A stretch of DNA of 7,354 nucleotides, taken from contig CP070627.1 of assembly GCA_020355945.1 (NCBI GenBank), forward strand, positions 7,800,953 to 7,808,306, in the 5' to 3' direction. This stretch comes from Candidatus Aminicenantota bacterium. GTDB lineage: Bacteria > Acidobacteriota > Aminicenantia > UBA2199. Under the pieces are notes generated by a model. The model was not told where the DNA came from. It was given only the letters and a program-made list of their open reading frames with translations, and did not search any database. Positions 1 through 7,335 of the stretch are shown here, in pieces (position 1 is the first letter of the stretch; each line of letters begins with the position of its first letter). A program made the position numbers and the translations under genes.

Positions 1-905
1 CCGATTTTTTTAAATGCGGGGACGTACCGCAAAATGAAATCATCTCCCTCGCCGCTGTATGCTTTTGTGAAAACGTCGTATATTTCGGGCTGCAGTGCAT
101 AAACAAATATGAGATTTTCATTGGTCATGATTTCAGTGCTGAATTGGAGTAGTTTTACCACTTCGCCTATCCAGTCTTCGCTGTTTGTGATTGTCTTAAT
201 GATCCGGTCCATTTCGTCGATAAACAGGACAACCGGGGCGGGGAGCTTGGCGGTTATTTTTGCGATGGACTTCTTTAGCGATTCCTCCGTATGTTTTTCG
301 TAATTTTTGGTTTCCGTTTTTTGGGTTTCTCTGCCGATTTTGGCATCCAATTTAGCTTTCAGGTTTAAAGGCAGGATGGAGCCGAGAAACAATTTAGGGA
401 AATTGGATTCGATTCCCGGGGTGATTTCCACCTGTTTTTTCTTAAAATCTTCTATAGTAATGGAAAAACTTAAGCGGTTTGTTTCAAAGGAAATTTCTTC
501 CGGTTGGTAATGGTTCATTAAATCATCGTTGTCGATGATCATCATCAAAAGGCTGGACAAAAAGGACCGGAATAGTTCCTCTTTCATTTCTTTATCGGTT
601 TTGGAATGCATGGAGAAGTAGAGGTAATCGGTATAATAGGAATCTTTTATTTCTTCCTGGCATTTTAGCAGCAGTGAGCTTTTTCCTGTGCCGGTTTCAC
701 CGATTACAGCGTAATTTTGATTGAATTCCACTGCTGTTTTAAGGTCGGTGATTTCATCTCTCCTGTCCACGAAACGCCGGATATCTTTGCCTTTTAGTTC
801 ATCGGTTTTAAAAAAGGGTTCCTTGATCCCGAAGAACTCTTTTATTCCATCGTTCTTTGTAACTTTTTTCATTGTTTTTTCTTTTTGCCTTTTTAGCTTT
901 GTCAT
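1..905 (-). CDS. P-loop AAA-type ATPase, C-terminus beyond window edge
   Basis: Translating the minus strand gives an open frame of 301 codons running off the left edge, so the C-terminus is not visible. I place the start at ATG 905 because AAAGGA (913-918) lies 7 nt upstream; a second in-frame ATG at 872 lacks a good ribosome site. The protein begins with a Lys-rich stretch, then FVDRRDEI (46-52), the lead-in seen in many AAA/ORC-like P-loop ATPases. Walker A is GETGTGKS (69-76) and Walker B is VVLFIDE followed by MDR (225-234). A sensor-1-like strand, LIFVYALQP, follows. About 150 residues separate Walker A from Walker B, longer than in a compact AAA core, and this insert is charged and unrecognised. 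The gene starts 31 nt after the NACHT gene on the same strand, so the two are probably co-transcribed and this ATPase is a candidate partner. ATPase assignment is firm; the exact family and role are not. Confidence 0.85.
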   Translation of the reverse strand, partial: MTKLKRQKEKTMKKVTKNDGIKEFFGIKEPFFKTDELKGKDIRRFVDRRDEITDLKTAVEFNQNYAVIGETGTGKSSLLLKCQEEIKDSYYTDYLYFSMHSKTDKEMKEELFRSFLSSLLMMIIDNDDLMNHYQPEEISFETNRLSFSITIEDFKKKQVEITPGIESNFPKLFLGSILPLNLKAKLDAKIGRETQKTETKNYEKHTEESLKKSIAKITAKLPAPVVLFIDEMDRIIKTITNSEDWIGEVVKLLQFSTEIMTNENLIFVYALQPEIYDVFTKAYSGEGDDFILRYVPAFKKI

Positions 906-936: not shown

Positions 937-3900
937 TTACAGCATATTTTTGAAAATGTAAAGGGCATTGAGGCGGATGTTGTCATCGGGGTGGGCGGCG
1001 ATGAACTTCCTGATGATTAGATACAACTTTTCATAATTGTTATTTCCCAGGATTTCAAAGGCTTTTAGGTGATGGGTATGTTTTTCTTCTTCATGTTGGG
1101 AGTCCAGCTCGAATTCCAGCATCTGTTCCACGGATTTTTCGTCGAAAGTTACCAGCTTTGCTATGTGGGCTTGTTTTTTCTTTGTCAATTCTCTCCCTTT
1201 CAAGATATCGCAATTGCCTTTGGAAAGTTCATTGGCAATTACCTCTGCAAAACTGTCACGAAATTTCTTCAACTCTTCTTTTGTGGTGTTGGGAAAATAT
1301 TTTAAAAGCTTTTTGTCGGACAAAGAATGCAATTTATCAATGGCCCGGTCCACCCATTGGGAAATCTCGCGCTGATGTTCCATTAATTTTGATTTGTATT
1401 TTTCTTTGAATTCCATTGAGATTTTTTTACAATACGTGAAGATCAAGAAGGAACTTATAATAAAGAAAATCTGGGGAGCCCAGAGGTCCCGAAGGCACAG
1501 GAGATCCTGGAGGTACTGGAGGTCCCGGAGGTCCCGGAGTTCCAGGAGATCCAGGAGGTCCAGGAGGTCGCGGAGATACAGGAGGTCCATGAAGTCACGG
1601 AGATCACGGAGGCCCCATAGGCCCAGGTATTGTAAAATAATATCCCCGGATTTTAATTTTGCTAACATGAAATTAAAATCCGTTACGTTCCTACGCCCTG
1701 CTGCCAGGAGTACCATACTATTATTATTCCGAAGCAGGAAACGCAAACGCTGGTGGTCGCTTATATTGCTTTGTTTATCGAAATCTTCGATACGGTTCTT
1801 CAATCGCGCCATTAATTCCGCTTTTGTTTTATCACCGCATTTATACAGGATAGAGGCGCCAATGGACTGCACAAAGGGATGCGGCGCATGATCAAACAGG
1901 TTCCATGCTTCCCTCTCCAGATGTTCCGCCTTTTGGTATAAAGGGTAATGCAGCACTAAAGCATCGATTAAGTTATCATTTACATCCTTACATTCAATTA
2001 CCATAAGTATATCGATAACCTTTCTCGCGAACTTCAACTCGATGGTATCCCTGGTCCCTTCCACCACCACTTCCAGCAGGCATTCTTCCCAAAAACGCAT
2101 TTGCTGCCAATATTTCTTTTTTAATAATTGCTCGATGATCTCATCGAAAAATAATTCCGCGCTGCCGATATTTACAAAGAGCTTGAAGGTTTCCCGCCAA
2201 TAATCTTTATCATAATATCGGAGGATTTCAACCTGGACTTTTCGGTTAGCAAAGTACCATGCTGCCAGGAACTCCTGGAAGGTGAGATGCAAAAAACCGT
2301 ACTTGCCTTCGGATTCATAAAGCAGCCCGGCCTTTAGTACCATTTCCTTCAAAAAGAACCCCCGTGTTTTTCCCTCGATTTTAACCGGCCAACAGGCCTC
2401 GATTTCCTTTTTATCCATTTCCCTGCGGTTTGTTTTCATCAATTGTACCGCGATTTTGGAAAGGTGGGCCATGCTGTTTTCAAAGGAGAAGCTGACATCC
2501 AGCTTTCGATTGGCCAGGTTCCACAGCTCGATCATTACTTTGAGGCATTCCTCGTATAATTTGTAGCGGTCCCTGGGTAGTACGGCACGGGTGCGGTGGA
2601 CGATGGCAATAATTGTCAATAACAGCGGATTCACCGATAATTCCAGAAGATTTTTCGAATCCCGGATGATATCGATTAAATCTTTATATTTTTTTTCTCC
2701 TTGCTCGATGGCTTTTTGGATATGCATTTCCCCGGCCACGGCAATCTCGACATTCCGGTACCAGTTTTGCAAAAAGGCTTCTGCATCTGCCATTTCAAAA
2801 TCCCGTAGTGAAAAAACCGGGATCTCATCCCGGAACTTTAAGCCTTCCGACTCTTTTATACCTGAGAACCGGGAAGTAACAACCAGGGTATTTTGGCCCA
2901 TGTACTGCTTTTGTATCCAGTTGATTACTTCACGCCGGACATTTTCATCCCCAATCTCATCCAGCCCGTCCAGGAGAAACAACAGCCGGTTGGCTTTAAA
3001 TTGGCCATCTAAAAACGATTCAACGGCTGTGTTTTCTTTTTGATAGAGTTCAATTGCTAAATTAACAATGTTTTTGGAACGAAATGTCCCGTCAGGATTG
3101 GCCCCCAGGTCTTTCAGCGAAATAAATACCGGGATGAATTGCGAGAAAAATTTACCTTTGTCTTTCAGGCACTGCAGCGCAATCCATTTCATCAGGGTGG
3201 TTTTCCCGCTGCCGGGCTTGCCCAGGATCAGCATCTGCACCGGTGGGTACTTTTCCCGGTCCCGTTTATGCAATTCTCTAAAAAAGGTGACAAAATCTTT
3301 AACATGTTCTTTTTCATATTTTTCTTTAGTTTTGATGTTCTCGTCCCCGGGATGAAGCAGCGAAGAGAAGTGTTGTAACTTTTCAACTCTCCCGCATTTG
3401 CTGGCGCGCAGCTTTACATAAATATCTTCAAGCCGCAGCGGTTTTTGCAAGATGGCATTCAACCCGGTGAAATCCAGGTAACGAAACTTTCGCTGCAAAT
3501 GCTCTTTGTAATGCTCCAGGTCAAGCTTTGCCAATTCCTCTTTGTCTGCTTCATCAACCACTGCCTCTTGTTTAAGAAGAATCACCTGGTCCAATTGGCG
3601 CTGCAATTTTAAGATCAAATCTTCCCCGGATTTAAATGTACCGTATATCTGTTGATACTGTTGAATTTCCTTCTTTAACCTGCCGATCTCCAGTATATCT
3701 TCATTGACTTCGGCAATGTCGATTTTTTCACTTTTAAAATAAACAAAAAGGAAATGCGGTTTCTTTCCTTTTTTAAGATTCTCGTAGGCCAGCTTGAATT
3801 CTTCTTTAGTGAATTTGCCCACCTTTTTAAAAAAAAGCACCATCACGATATCGCACTCCAACATCTTGCGATTAAAATAGTCCTGGATACGTTCCCCCCG

Positions 3901-4053
3901 GAAACTTTGCAGCAAGTCCTCCCATACGACCAGTTCGAGATAAACATCCTTTTCCACCCAGGCATTATTCTGCCGGGAGATCATTAAAGCGATTTCCTTG
4001 CGCTCCAGAGCTAATTCGTTGGAAGAGGCCAGGAAAACTTTATATTTTCTCAC
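937..4053 (-). CDS. TIR/DUF4062-like NACHT STAND ATPase with Leu-x-Asp repeat
   Basis: A STAND-class NTPase of about 1038 residues, numbered here from GTG 4053. Residues 4-110 form a TIR/DUF4062-like domain: first strand KYKVFLASSNEL, a WED motif near 64-66, strand CDIVMVLFF, then GKFTKEEFKLAYE, where a glutamate could match the catalytic position of NADase TIRs (inference). A helical linker (about 115-210) leads to LEDIYVKL, a motif often just before NACHT. NACHT follows: Walker A GKPGSGKTT (278-286), Walker B LLFLLDGLDE (357-366), TSR sensor (393-395), and the late NLR-like motif FLHLTFQEFLAA (587-598). The C-terminal half is helical and HEAT-like in places. It contains 14 Leu-x-x triplets (815-857), a short hydrophobic stretch (862-875), and an unrecognised charged tail. 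Related bacterial NACHT proteins act in phage defence, so defence is the likely but unproven role. The frame stays open to GTG 4113, adding 20 residues, but a consensus promoter lies inside that extension and the domain begins right after 4053. Confidence 0.9.
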   Translation of the reverse strand: MRKYKVFLASSNELALERKEIALMISRQNNAWVEKDVYLELVVWEDLLQSFRGERIQDYFNRKMLECDIVMVLFFKKVGKFTKEEFKLAYENLKKGKKPHFLFVYFKSEKIDIAEVNEDILEIGRLKKEIQQYQQIYGTFKSGEDLILKLQRQLDQVILLKQEAVVDEADKEELAKLDLEHYKEHLQRKFRYLDFTGLNAILQKPLRLEDIYVKLRASKCGRVEKLQHFSSLLHPGDENIKTKEKYEKEHVKDFVTFFRELHKRDREKYPPVQMLILGKPGSGKTTLMKWIALQCLKDKGKFFSQFIPVFISLKDLGANPDGTFRSKNIVNLAIELYQKENTAVESFLDGQFKANRLLFLLDGLDEIGDENVRREVINWIQKQYMGQNTLVVTSRFSGIKESEGLKFRDEIPVFSLRDFEMADAEAFLQNWYRNVEIAVAGEMHIQKAIEQGEKKYKDLIDIIRDSKNLLELSVNPLLLTIIAIVHRTRAVLPRDRYKLYEECLKVMIELWNLANRKLDVSFSFENSMAHLSKIAVQLMKTNRREMDKKEIEACWPVKIEGKTRGFFLKEMVLKAGLLYESEGKYGFLHLTFQEFLAAWYFANRKVQVEILRYYDKDYWRETFKLFVNIGSAELFFDEIIEQLLKKKYWQQMRFWEECLLEVVVEGTRDTIELKFARKVIDILMVIECKDVNDNLIDALVLHYPLYQKAEHLEREAWNLFDHAPHPFVQSIGASILYKCGDKTKAELMARLKNRIEDFDKQSNISDHQRLRFLLRNNNSMVLLAAGRRNVTDFNFMLAKLKSGDIILQYLGLWGLRDLRDFMDLLYLRDLLDLLDLLELRDLRDLQYLQDLLCLRDLWAPQIFFIISSFLIFTYCKKISMEFKEKYKSKLMEHQREISQWVDRAIDKLHSLSDKKLLKYFPNTTKEELKKFRDSFAEVIANELSKGNCDILKGRELTKKKQAHIAKLVTFDEKSVEQMLEFELDSQHEEEKHTHHLKAFEILGNNNYEKLYLIIRKFIAAHPDDNIRLNALYIFKNML
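1472..1624 (-). repeat. 9-bp tandem repeat array inside the NACHT gene
   Basis: Seventeen consecutive 9-bp units can be laid out without gaps. The plus-strand consensus is about (A/C)GGAGGTCC, with variants such as AGGAGATCC, CGGAGTTCC and CGGAGATAC. The most regular part is 1499-1588; units decay at both ends. In the coding frame the array gives Leu-Arg-Asp, Leu-Leu-Asp and Leu-Gln-Tyr triplets. One frame over on the same strand it gives Gly-Pro-Pro/Gly-Ser-Pro collagen-like triplets, interrupted by two TGA codons near its upstream end. On the plus strand it gives Arg-Ser-rich or Gly-Gly-Pro strings. Since 9 is a multiple of 3, gain or loss of units keeps the gene in frame. Confidence 0.9.
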
Positions 4054-4088: not shown

Positions 4089-4116
4089 TTCCCTGCCATG
4101 TCCCTAAATCCACCGC

Positions 4117-4213: not shown

Positions 4214-5980
4214 TTAATCAAGAATCGTGCGAATCGCCCGGGCAATGTCTTTTTTAAGTAAGGGTTTCAAGACAAAGGCGTTAATCCGGTGAGTTTTAAT
4301 GGTTTCTTCCTTAACGCTTTCGCTGAAACCGGTACAAAGGATGATGGGAATATCCGACCGTATTTGCCGGAGTTTCCCGGAGAGCTGCAGACCGGTCAAA
4401 TTGGGCATGATTTGGTCTGTAATCACCAGGGCAAAACGGTGCGGCGCGCTGCTGAAAGCTTCTAAGGCCTCGATAGCACTGGTCCTGGCTGTCACTGTGT
4501 ATCCCAGGGATTCCAGCATTTGCTGTGCCAATTCCACCAGGGTTTCTTCATCATCAACAAAAAGAATGTGCTCGTTTCCTCCCTGGATCTCTTCTTTTAC
4601 CTCTACTTCTGATATTTTTTCAATTTCAGTAACCGGGAAATAAATGTGAAAAACGGTGCCTTTACCGGGTTCCGAGTAAACGGTAATCTCACCGCCATGG
4701 CTTTTGATTATTCCATGAGCCAGGGCCAATCCCATGCCAGTCCCTTCACCCTTTGCCTTGGTGGTGAAATAGGGCTCAAATATCCGGTTCATGACTTCGG
4801 GTATCATGCCGTGCCCCGTATCACTGATAGTTAACTGTTGATACCTGCCGGGCTGAAGATTTTTCACTCCTATGTCCCGGGGATCAAGGTGGATTTCTTT
4901 TAACAGGATTTCAAGGGTTCCTCCCTGCTCACTCATGGCATGAGCGGCATTGGTACAAAGGTTCATGATAACCTGGTGAATTTCAGTCCAATTGGCCAGG
5001 ATGGGACCGAACTCTCCCGGGATATGTTGACGAATTTCAATAGTAGTAGGCAGTGCGGAACGCAGTAATTTAAGAGATTCATTGACAATTTCATTCAACA
5101 AAACCGGTTTTCGTTCTTTTTCCGTTTTACGGCTGAAAGTGAGGATATGTTTCACCAGGTCCCTGGCCCGTTGGCAGGCGATCAGCACCTTTTCCATATA
5201 AGCCCGGTTGGGATCGTCTCCAGGTATATTCTCCAGGGTCATTTCCGAATAACCGATGATTACACCCAGGATGTTATTGAAATCGTGGGCAATGCCCCCG
5301 GCTAAAGTACCGATGGCTTCCATTTTTAAGGCCTGGCGCAGTTGTTCTTCCAGTTTTTGTCTCTCCTCTTCCGCTTGTTTACTCTCGGTAACATCTTCAA
5401 CAATACCATCGAAGTAGACAATATCGCCATTCTCCCCGGCCACGGCTTTACCGGTGTCTCGAACCCATATTTCTTTTCTGTCCCTGGTTAAAAGTTTATT
5501 TTCAATAGTGAGAACGCCTTTGTTTTTTTTCCATCTCATCAGGTAATCTGTCCGTTGGTTAGGGTTGACAAAGGTATGCTGGACCGGTACTTTTAATAGT
5601 TCCTCCACCGAATCATAGCCCAGCATGGCTGCCAATGCCGGATTAGCATATAATATTTGTCCTTCTTCAGATGTCCTGTAAATACCCACGGGGACTTGAT
5701 TGGCCAGGGACCTGTATTTTTCTTCGCTCTCTTGCAGCGCTTTTTCCGCCTGACGGGCTTCGATATCGGTAATGCGAGCTATACCGTATATCACCAGGCC
5801 TCCCACCACCAGCACCAAAAGACCAGGAAGAATAATCACCACCAATCCGTTTCTAGCTTCTGTGAGCTCATTCTTGAGGTTCCCGTTAATAATGAACAGG
5901 AAGAATGACGTATAAACCACTCCCAACAAAAGTACCAATACGCCGAAGTTTCTCAGAAATGTTCGCGATTTAAATTTCAT
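4214..5980 (-). CDS. Membrane PAS hybrid histidine kinase with receiver domain
   Basis: A 588-residue hybrid sensor kinase. Two membrane helices (about 11-31 and 45-67) are joined by a loop of roughly 13 residues, too small for a periplasmic sensing domain, so sensing is probably cytoplasmic through the PAS domain or within the membrane. A coil leads to PAS/PAC (about 84-200; [24 protein letters not shown]). The dimerisation/phosphoacceptor motif is GGIAHDFNN with His232. The ATP-binding domain shows the N box around N344 ([15 protein letters not shown]), G1 SDTGHGM (386-392), F box FEPYFTTK and G2 [10 protein letters not shown] (411-420). The C-terminal receiver (471-588) keeps D476/D477, phosphoacceptor D522 (VITDQIMP), T550 and K572, so all key residues for phosphotransfer are present. 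There is no HAMP, HPt or DNA-binding output domain, so the downstream partner is not visible. It is divergent from the sigma gene, and a receiver-like fragment follows its stop codon. Confidence 0.95.
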
Positions 5981-6101: not shown

Positions 6102-6629
6102 ATGGATATAGACGAAATTATTGACAAATACTATCAGAAAATTTATAAATTATGCCTCTTTTACCTTAATAATAAAGAGGAAGCCGAGGAAATCCTCCAG
6201 GAAATATTTATCAAAGTAATGAAAAAGGGTTCCGCCTTTAAAGGCAAATCCGGCATCTATACCTGGATTTACCGCATTGCCGTCAATACACTCATCAACT
6301 ATATCAACAGGAAAAAAATCGTGGAATTTATTTCTTTTGAAAGTGTAAAGAATTTCGGGGAGCCAGGGGATGATGCAGATTCATCCTTACACGGTATGGA
6401 CCCGGCGGTTAAACTGGAAAAGCATGAAATTGAAAAACAAAAAATTGAAAAATTAGAGGAATGTATCCAACGATTATCCCATCGCGAGAAAACCGCATTT
6501 TATTTTTTTCATTATGACCGGTTGAAACAGAGTGAAATTGCAGGAATTATGAAAACCTCGGTTTCAGCTGTAGAGTCCCTGGTTCACAAAGCCGTGAAAA
6601 AACTCAAAACCTGTGTCAAAGATACATAA
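6102..6629 (+). CDS. ECF-type RNA polymerase sigma factor
   Basis: A 175-residue protein of normal ECF sigma length that would redirect RNA polymerase to a dedicated promoter set. Region 2 spans about 5-75: YYQKIYKLCLFYLNNKEEAE, then EILQEIFIKVMKK and FKGKSGIYTWIYRIAVNTLI, the classic core-binding and -10-recognition pattern. A variable acidic linker (about 80-117) leads to region 4 (118-170): LEECIQRLSHREKTAF and the helix-turn-helix LKQSEIAGIMKTSVSAVESL, which would read the -35. Region 3 is absent, as in ECF factors. No anti-sigma factor, zinc-binding anti-sigma motif or membrane protein gene lies beside it; the next gene is convergent and the upstream gene is a divergent kinase. Control may be transcriptional, by a distant anti-sigma, or through the kinase; the sequence does not say which. 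The start is fixed by the promoter directly upstream and by the conserved N-terminus. Confidence 0.93.
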   Translation: MDIDEIIDKYYQKIYKLCLFYLNNKEEAEEILQEIFIKVMKKGSAFKGKSGIYTWIYRIAVNTLINYINRKKIVEFISFESVKNFGEPGDDADSSLHGMDPAVKLEKHEIEKQKIEKLEECIQRLSHREKTAFYFFHYDRLKQSEIAGIMKTSVSAVESLVHKAVKKLKTCVKDT

Positions 6630-6633
6630 AAGG

Positions 6634-7335
6634 TTAACAGGCTTCTTTTAATATCATTGCTGCTGCTGAAAAAATCCCGGAAACAGCAGCAGCCCGGTTA
6701 GCGTTCACCGTATTCCTAATGGCCTTTTTGAAAACATCTGCCTCTGCCAACGTATCCATTCGCAGCATTACCCTCTCCTGGTCCTCCTGCTGGGGGAAAA
6801 CCTGGCGGGTGAGCTTGCACCCATGGATGAGACCGATAAGTCTCAGGCTTTTGGGGTCCGGTTCTTGTCCCTGCACCAGGATATGATGAAGCCGCCTGCG
6901 GAGGTGCTGGAGGGGGACATCATACCAGATGCAGAACCGCTGCTTGCGAAACAGTTTTGGCTCATCTTCTCCAGTTCCCGGCTCTCCCCGCCGTTTCAGT
7001 ATACCTTTATCCATCAGGTCATTTAACAAAATATTCTTAAAGGTTTTGTACTTGGTCCCTAATTTGGCAACCCAGTGTTGGACTTTTTTCTGTTTTTGGG
7101 ATTGCCCCAGGACTTCAAGGGCGGGATCCAGTAGCATATCCCCAAAAAGATTACCCTCAAGTACCTTGATCGCTTCCTCATCTAACTGCAGTTTTTCCAG
7201 GATAATCAATTCTTGTAAAATTGCCGCGGCCACACCGTATTTGAAATACTCTCTTTTAAACGGGGCAACGCACCCTTTCTTTTCATTTAAAGCCAGCAAA
7301 AACAGTTCTTCTGACAGTCGCAGTTCAACAGCCAT
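6634..7335 (-). CDS. GPP34 (GOLPH3/Vps74-like) family protein
   Basis: A 233-residue protein matching bacterial members of the GPP34 family in length and pattern. The N-terminal LRLSEELFLLALNEKKG (5-21) is the family signature, followed by the helix GVAAAILQELIILEKLQL (34-51), DPALEVLG (70-77), the segment TFKNILLNDLMDKGILKRR (98-116), and LRLIGLIHGCKL (164-175). The C-terminus ends in alanine-rich helices (213-229). Eukaryotic relatives bind PI4P on Golgi membranes and sort glycosyltransferases. Bacterial members have no settled function, so peripheral membrane association is only a guess. No signal peptide or membrane helix is visible. The start is supported by AGAGG 8 nt upstream of the ATG. 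It is convergent with the sigma gene, with 4 nt between the stop codons and no recognisable terminator between them; upstream context is beyond the window. Confidence 0.85.
   Translation of the reverse strand: MAVELRLSEELFLLALNEKKGCVAPFKREYFKYGVAAAILQELIILEKLQLDEEAIKVLEGNLFGDMLLDPALEVLGQSQKQKKVQHWVAKLGTKYKTFKNILLNDLMDKGILKRRGEPGTGEDEPKLFRKQRFCIWYDVPLQHLRRRLHHILVQGQEPDPKSLRLIGLIHGCKLTRQVFPQQEDQERVMLRMDTLAEADVFKKAIRNTVNANRAAAVSGIFSAAAMILKEAC

Follow-up and report, generated by a model that had tools for sequence, protein, structure and literature searches.

The window analysed here, a 7,354-nt stretch of the genome of a Candidatus Aminicenantota bacterium, carries a gene for a NACHT STAND protein (P0001) of 1,038 amino acids, or of 1,058 if translation starts, as in the ORF listing, at the alternative GTG at position 4113 (Table 1). 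Its NACHT match scored 54.3 bits against a Pfam cut-off of 26.7, and both the P-loop and the Walker B motif are present. At the N terminus, AlphaFold2 predicted alternating strands and helices, and Pfam gave TIR_2 at E 0.0016 (19.3 bits, cut-off 28) and DUF4062 at E 0.08. Several of the nearest named homologues returned by a protein search carry the label Candidatus Aminicenantes. The C-terminal part of the protein contains a repeat array, which we argue to be translated in the coding frame because the downstream flank is kept in the same frame among homologues.

Table 1 Genes and features of the window, all positions given on the forward strand
Feature	Position	Strand	Basis or remark
Partial ATPase_2/AAA-type ATPase gene	3..905	-	Same strand as the NACHT gene and directly downstream of it
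NACHT STAND protein gene (P0001, 1038 aa)	937..4053	-	PF05729 NACHT, E 1.9e-14, above cut-off
Helical downstream flank and C terminus	937..1485	-	Conserved, same reading frame in homologues
9-bp DNA repeat, 17 units	1472..1624	-	Lag identity, Tandem Repeats Finder
Variable array, 14 Leu-x-x triplets, residues 815-856 of P0001	1486..1611	-	Codon reading
Mostly helical region, NACHT to array	1612..2754	-	Ends in the conserved upstream flank (KLKS..LQYL)
NACHT domain	2755..3234	-	P-loop GKPGSGKT, LLDGLDE; residues 294-453 of the 1058-aa frame
Alpha/beta domain at the N terminus, perhaps TIR-like or DUF4062-like	3583..4053	-	Both Pfam models below cut-off
Hybrid PAS-histidine kinase-receiver gene	4214..5980	-	Beside the NACHT gene
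Sigma-70-family factor gene	6102..6629	+	Regions 2 and 4 only
Golgi phosphoprotein 3 family protein gene	6634..7335	-	GPP34, E 3e-35

At the DNA level, the gap-free 9-bp units have a lag-9 identity of 0.70, compared with 0.28 ± 0.036 (maximum 0.43) after 5,000 base shufflings and 0.43 in the highest-scoring other 153-bp segment of the window. Tandem Repeats Finder reported arrays within positions 1479–1612 with periods of 9, 27, 36 and 45 bp. Codon reading of the minus strand gave the array core as LRD LRD FMD LLY LRD LLD LLD LLE LRD LRD LQY LQD LLC LRD, in which Phe replaces Leu once and Asp or Glu stands third in 11 of the 14 triplets. An earlier note, made from the letters of the DNA, had counted the same units and triplets and had held that their period matches no LRR, HEAT, TPR or heptad repeat; the counts were reproduced, and no LRR, HEAT, TPR or coiled-coil Pfam model was found over the array in the scanned proteins. 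P0088 and P0104 did give weak HEAT_2 matches, in each case downstream of the array.

To compare the site among relatives, residues 560–1038 of P0001 were scored on 7,993 candidates, which gave a list of 75 proteins, the window's own included. Since the array lies inside this region, it could influence which homologues were recruited, although the flanks probably supplied most of the score. An alignment was made of 57 of the 75 proteins, and 56 held both flank anchors (P0050, lacking an anchor, was left out). In 53 of the 56 members, the window protein counted, the same pair of conserved flanks enclosed nine or more hydrophobic-x-x triplets, and the triplet runs between the anchors had a median of 21 and a range of 5–33; P0008, P0012 and P0062 fell below nine. 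The run exceeded the 95th percentile of a member's own 100 shuffles in 48 of the 56 and did not exceed it in the other 8. Homologues with a non-repetitive, alignable sequence, which the earlier note had named as an argument against its reading, occur in part: a clean array is missing at the site in P0008, P0012, P0062, L133, L136 and L141.

The content of the site differed among close relatives. In 83 between-species pairs whose flanks were at least 70% identical, the array was less conserved than the flanks in 74 (mean identity 0.53 versus 0.78), was equal in length in 8 and differed in length by a multiple of three residues in 60; the order of the units varied, not the length alone. The six nearest proteins (P0001–P0006, 15 pairs) had flanks 84–91% identical and arrays 37–73% identical; gaps took up 3 to 33 columns of the array, always a multiple of three. 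In 38 of the 56 members the number of residues between the anchors was divisible by three, for which the binomial p of 1.4e-7 assumes an independence that these members do not have. Such frame-keeping indels agree with the earlier proposal that the repeat number can change without breaking the gene, and the few close pairs of equal length support its view of a length-variable region within a NACHT, defence-sensor-like protein. Identical copy number and unit order among relatives, which would speak the other way, was not the general case; the exception is an Ile-based clade (P0015, P0020, P0021 and P0026), in which the arrays have identical length and 85–96% identity, unlike the Leu arrays. This comparison shows a coding array with a three-residue period, fixed in location, variable in length and order, and with homogenised units in several genes.

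Residues were counted over 1,350 triplets from the 54 of 108 proteins that passed an array filter, which itself demands a hydrophobic residue at position 1; the total is not free of flank units (LKS and LAK, for example). Position 1 was Leu in 66, Ile in 12, Phe in 8, Met in 3 and Trp in 2 percent, position 2 was Arg in 45 and Leu in 16 percent, and position 3 was Asp in 44, Tyr in 18, Asn in 8 and Glu in 6 percent. As pairs at positions 2 and 3, Leu-Tyr was rare (8) compared with Leu-Asp (124), Arg-Asp (291) and Arg-Tyr (154), and a second count over 79 arrays found an Arg-Tyr unit in 63, a Leu-Asp unit in 61 and a Leu-Tyr unit in 11. This shortage of Leu-Tyr would also be expected from one-step mutation of LRD followed by copying. 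The three-residue period was kept in the four Ile arrays (P0015, P0020, P0021, P0026), in the Ala/Pro/Phe-rich array of P0007, in the Phe-containing one of P0082 and in the Trp-rich one of P0086. Trp stands in place of many leucines in the arrays of P0086, P0104 and P0111 (WRDWRDWQD). The order of units at position 2 had a weak excess at lags of 1, 3, 4 and 6 units, and a solenoid period in the unit order was rejected because of this weakness.

Arrays of different lineages were written in different codons. The units CTC-CGA-GAC, CTC-CTA-GAC and CTC-CGA-TAC together made up 18 of 24 units in L005, 14 of 19 in L007 and 13 of 19 in L009 (flank units included), and CTC accounted for 14 of 91, 10 of 97 and 19 of 88 leucines in the rest of these genes, respectively. 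L010 (SAR324) used TTG-CGA-GAT, TTG-CTA-GAT and TTG-CGA-TAT, and two loci from a search of the class containing a Ktedonobacterales genome used CTG with AGA or ATA and with GAC or TAC (L135), or CTG with CGA or GGA and with GAC or TAC (L140). A similar protein alphabet (LRD, LRY, L[L/I/G/S]D) thus recurs in different codons in other lineages, Ktedonobacteria included, and copies within these genes are homogenised. More synonymous variation was present in the older-looking arrays of the window, L003, L139 and L142.

Variants were counted against the modal unit of each of 13 DNA arrays, with units failing the residue filter and multi-base variants dropped. Single-base variant units numbered 60 synonymous and 154 non-synonymous, corresponding to 23 and 51 distinct types, and the expected synonymous share is 16–44%, depending on the array and the mutation model. 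In five homogenised arrays the numbers were 1 and 56, which count copies and not events. As the distinct types lie near what mutation alone gives, we do not claim diversifying or positive selection. Single-base Asp-to-Tyr variants were found in 10 of the 12 Asp-modal arrays (35 units), compared with 9 units carrying the transition Asp-to-Asn, and Tyr-to-Asp variants were found in L140. That Tyr appears to be favoured over Asn among the changes of Asp points to selection on position 3. G-to-T hypermutation was rejected as the cause of the alphabet, since the third-position G of the Leu codon is not changed to T in L010, L135 or L140.

Occurrence of the 9-mer in other genes, a point raised by the earlier note, was followed with one degenerate DNA pattern in six array-bearing genomes, and 20 of the 21 exact matches sit in NACHT genes. 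The reversed control gave 1 match and the array-bearing genomes G002 and G006 gave 0, so that the pattern sees only part of the arrays. A mobile 9-mer spread over the genome was rejected, given that 20 of 21 matches occupy NACHT-family places. An array-only protein search took residues 715–815 of P0038 as the query against 7,992 length-limited candidates and gave 53 proteins, of which 41 have a precomputed NACHT call and the other 12 align at 38–60% with NACHT members. P0103 was the only one of 33 new proteins to have no long run, and part of the new matches were labelled Ktedonobacteraceae where the source gave names. The array of P0077, searched in the same manner, yielded 21 matches, including the new NACHT members P0111 (34 triplets) and P0118. 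Nine of the 21 we take to be LRR types from Pfam accessions that we recognised, several of them from plants; their runs peak at 8 to 11 triplets and are not arrays. At least 12 triplets were present in 88 of 119 proteins (LRR proteins among the 119), and 75 of the 88 had a Walker A pattern; the 13 lacking it were P0003, P0006 and eleven members of two Ktedonobacteria-type families. With one shuffle per protein, the run never exceeded 10 in the 119, and outside the main array one protein had a run of 12 and two had runs of 15.

The family is patchy. In the class of G001, 6 of the 142 genomes had members at E 1e-60, and in the class of G144, 5 of the 47 had members at E 1e-100; of the five best loci in the latter class, four had an array by the filter and L141 had none. 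When profiles were compared for a common ancestry of the array in the two scaffolds, the window family matched the Ktedonobacteria-type families in the NACHT domain and the adjoining part only, the alignments ending at P0001 residue 682 or 627, before the array; a comparison of the two Ktedonobacteria-type families gave an alignment of 1,012 columns that extended as far as column 1064 of the 1194 in the profile. G001 alone holds 29 matches to the window protein, most of them remote, amounting to a large NACHT-type repertoire. One family member, L085 (G005:C381:56-2437), has two TGA codons inside the matched region and may be a pseudogene, an assembly error or a case of another code. Among the literature matches listed, which mostly lay outside subscription journals and bioRxiv preprints, we recognised no description of this array.

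AlphaFold2 modelled P0001 from 57 sequences with a mean pLDDT of 82.4. By blocks, pLDDT was 71 at residues 811–820, where the array starts, and 37–49 at residues 821–870. The model of P0038 (40 sequences, mean pLDDT 78.6) had values of 32–46 at residues 731–790, and at its ends the array passes into helices predicted with confidence. Thus, neither model gave a confident fold for most of the array, and neither predicted strands or a WD, ANK or TPR fold in it. The top Foldseek matches of the P0001 model were NLRP3, NLRC4 and NOD2 (E 2e-12 to 1e-10), and the TM-score of about 0.3 by query length makes this a partial match, in line with an NLR-like overall fold. PDB sequences searched with a hand-composed array gave as best match 9c3h, a 25-residue nascent chain of repeated RDL (E 0.0015), followed by internalins at E 0.014 and above, and the whole of P0038 matched only a G-alpha chain and miniGq, weakly and near the P-loop; no PDB entry was informative on the array by sequence. 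The nascent RDL of 9c3h chain NC resembles these arrays in sequence. The N termini also differ within the family: the shorter members P0022, P0024, P0025 and P0027 lack the alpha/beta N terminus of P0001 and have a hydrophobic, membrane-spanning-looking start, and a long N-terminal helix was predicted by AlphaFold2 for P0038, which suggests effector swapping.

We propose, at about even chances, that this fast-evolving three-residue repeat is the variable, sensing part of a NACHT STAND protein. A coding minisatellite would build a [Leu/Ile/Phe/Trp]-[Arg or Leu/Ile/Gly/Ser]-[Asp/Tyr/Asn/Glu] segment in the C-terminal helical part, and its units would be gained, lost and homogenised mostly in 9-bp steps, so that the array could change in length and order between species without breakage of the gene. 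Selection would hold a hydrophobic residue at every third position and a small alphabet elsewhere. The variability is what comparison of relatives shows, and selection on the protein pattern is supported. Beyond this, we infer that the array contributes to sensing as the changeable part of the receptor's surface, where exposed combinations of Arg/Leu and Asp/Tyr triplets might bind or gate an infection signal; the NACHT domain would then oligomerise and the weakly TIR-like N-terminal domain would act as the effector. Such a receptor would resemble the fungal NLRs, in which WD, ANK and TPR repeats are homogenised and reshuffled. The low pLDDT over the array in both models counts against this reading, as do the near-neutral proportions of the distinct variants, the homologues without a clean array and the nearly unchanged Ile clade. 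A bolder form of the proposal, in which the LRD-type arrays constitute an undescribed, NACHT-specific class of three-residue repeat that serves several phyla as a modular, rapidly rewritten recognition surface and adopts a new fold with a 3.0-residue period, strikes us as doubtful.

Neutral slippage offers a simpler account, in which a 9-bp minisatellite grows and decays in a tolerant insert between two helices and leucine, inherited from the founder unit, is merely harmless to folding. The low AlphaFold confidence, the homologue stretches without a clean array, the closeness of the distinct variant types to the neutral share and the higher-order periods of 27, 36 and 45 bp all fit this account. 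It explains less readily why different codon backgrounds converge on similar residues, why Ile, Phe, Met or Trp so often replace Leu (position-1 hydrophobicity being part of the filter), why array-only matches are confined to NACHT families, plain LRR proteins apart, and why position 3 prefers Tyr to Asn and Gly, which mutation reaches more easily. We consider neutral slippage improbable, and neutral turnover nevertheless stays the main rival because some homologues lack a clean array and selection on the variation is unproven.

The array might instead be an assembly element, an oligomeric or extended rod (for example, of stacked short strands like those of alpha/beta coiled coils) that sets spacing or aids the NACHT ring, its variability reflecting tolerance of length only. 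Hexads and nonads bring a three-residue step in hydrophobic spacing into coiled coils, and the step of the array may be of this kind. With neither strands nor a confident fold predicted in the array, and with the order of its units varying as well as its length, we regard such a rod as quite unlikely. Still less likely is a degenerate leucine-rich repeat solenoid, for which the weak matches of array-like letters to internalins and the nine LRR-type proteins found with the P0077 array could be cited. The LRR consensus has a unit of 20–30 residues, LxxLxLxxN/C; the window array has no LxL step and no conserved Asn/Cys, no LRR Pfam model matched the window protein or P0111, and the LRR-type matches have no arrays. 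LRR membership was rejected on these grounds.

The earlier note had also pointed to a collagen-like neighbouring frame, and the minus-strand frame beside the coding frame does read GPPGSPGTPGPPGPP. Stop codons lie a few codons upstream in this frame, and the ORF listing of the window contains no ORF of at least 80 amino acids in it. Across the neighbouring sense frames of 13 related DNA arrays, the longest Gly-x-y run was 5 units (window and L002), five other arrays had runs of at most 3 units, and six (L003, L004, L005, L007, L009 and L010) had none. On the opposite strand, Gly-x-x runs of 10 to 21 units face the arrays of the window (10 units, in one plus-strand frame of 1472–1624), L005 (19), L007, L009 and L140 (21), and L010 has 0; we take these runs as a consequence of the array codons, and codon choice seems to have produced the Gly-Pro-Pro frame as a side effect. 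The translated frame of the array contains no Gly-X-Y repeat and is not collagen-like. That the array began as a collagen-type repeat and changed its frame, as the earlier note had suggested, is therefore rejected as having practically no chance, given that 6 of 13 arrays have no sense-frame Gly-x-y run and that the conserved frame is the hydrophobic one, in which hydrophobic-x-x is kept with Leu, Ile, Phe and Trp.

Several known systems bear on a variable sensing array in a NACHT protein. In alpha/beta coiled coils, insertions of two or six residues into the heptads of a trimer show that unusual hydrophobic spacing can give new backbone structure (PMC4786415); the array here gives no evidence of a trimer or of strands. 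As in the NLRs of animals and plants, the NTPase of this NLR-like protein is followed towards the C terminus by a leucine-rich repeat region, which unlike theirs has a strict three-residue period and no LRR model match. Antiphage bNACHT proteins likewise have a central NACHT domain, and bNACHT25 is reported to sense indirectly via DnaJ; the array is not described in the part of the bNACHT account available (PMC12169576). Matches here were at 22–35 bits for NCBIfam EruA (cut-off 1000) and below 24 bits for PADLOC. NACHT sensors diversified by DGRs resemble the family in that the part made variable in a NACHT-associated bacterial protein is a putative sensor; error-prone reverse transcription is there aimed at a CLec domain (PMC10907252), whereas the variation here would come from 9-bp repeat turnover, and none of the five window genes scanned encodes a reverse transcriptase.

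Repeat-based diversification of NLRs is already known from fungi. If the sensing reading is true, a bacterial NACHT lineage would be doing the same with a three-residue repeat and would make a simple system, one where the DNA sequence gives the order of the units and this order can be set against what the receptor detects. It would also raise the structural question of what fold a chain takes up when every third residue is leucine. Fungal NLRs of the HET-D/HET-E/HET-R type carry homogenised WD, ANK or TPR repeats, and the repeat domain of such an NLR-type receptor combines high internal similarity, number variation and concerted evolution (PMC4986451). Positive selection is reported there; the arrays here have 51 non-synonymous and 23 synonymous distinct variants. 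The unit here is three residues long, in a bacterial host, and no WD, ANK or TPR Pfam model matched the window protein. Like the fungal repeats, these arrays vary in number and order among close relatives in the between-species comparison.
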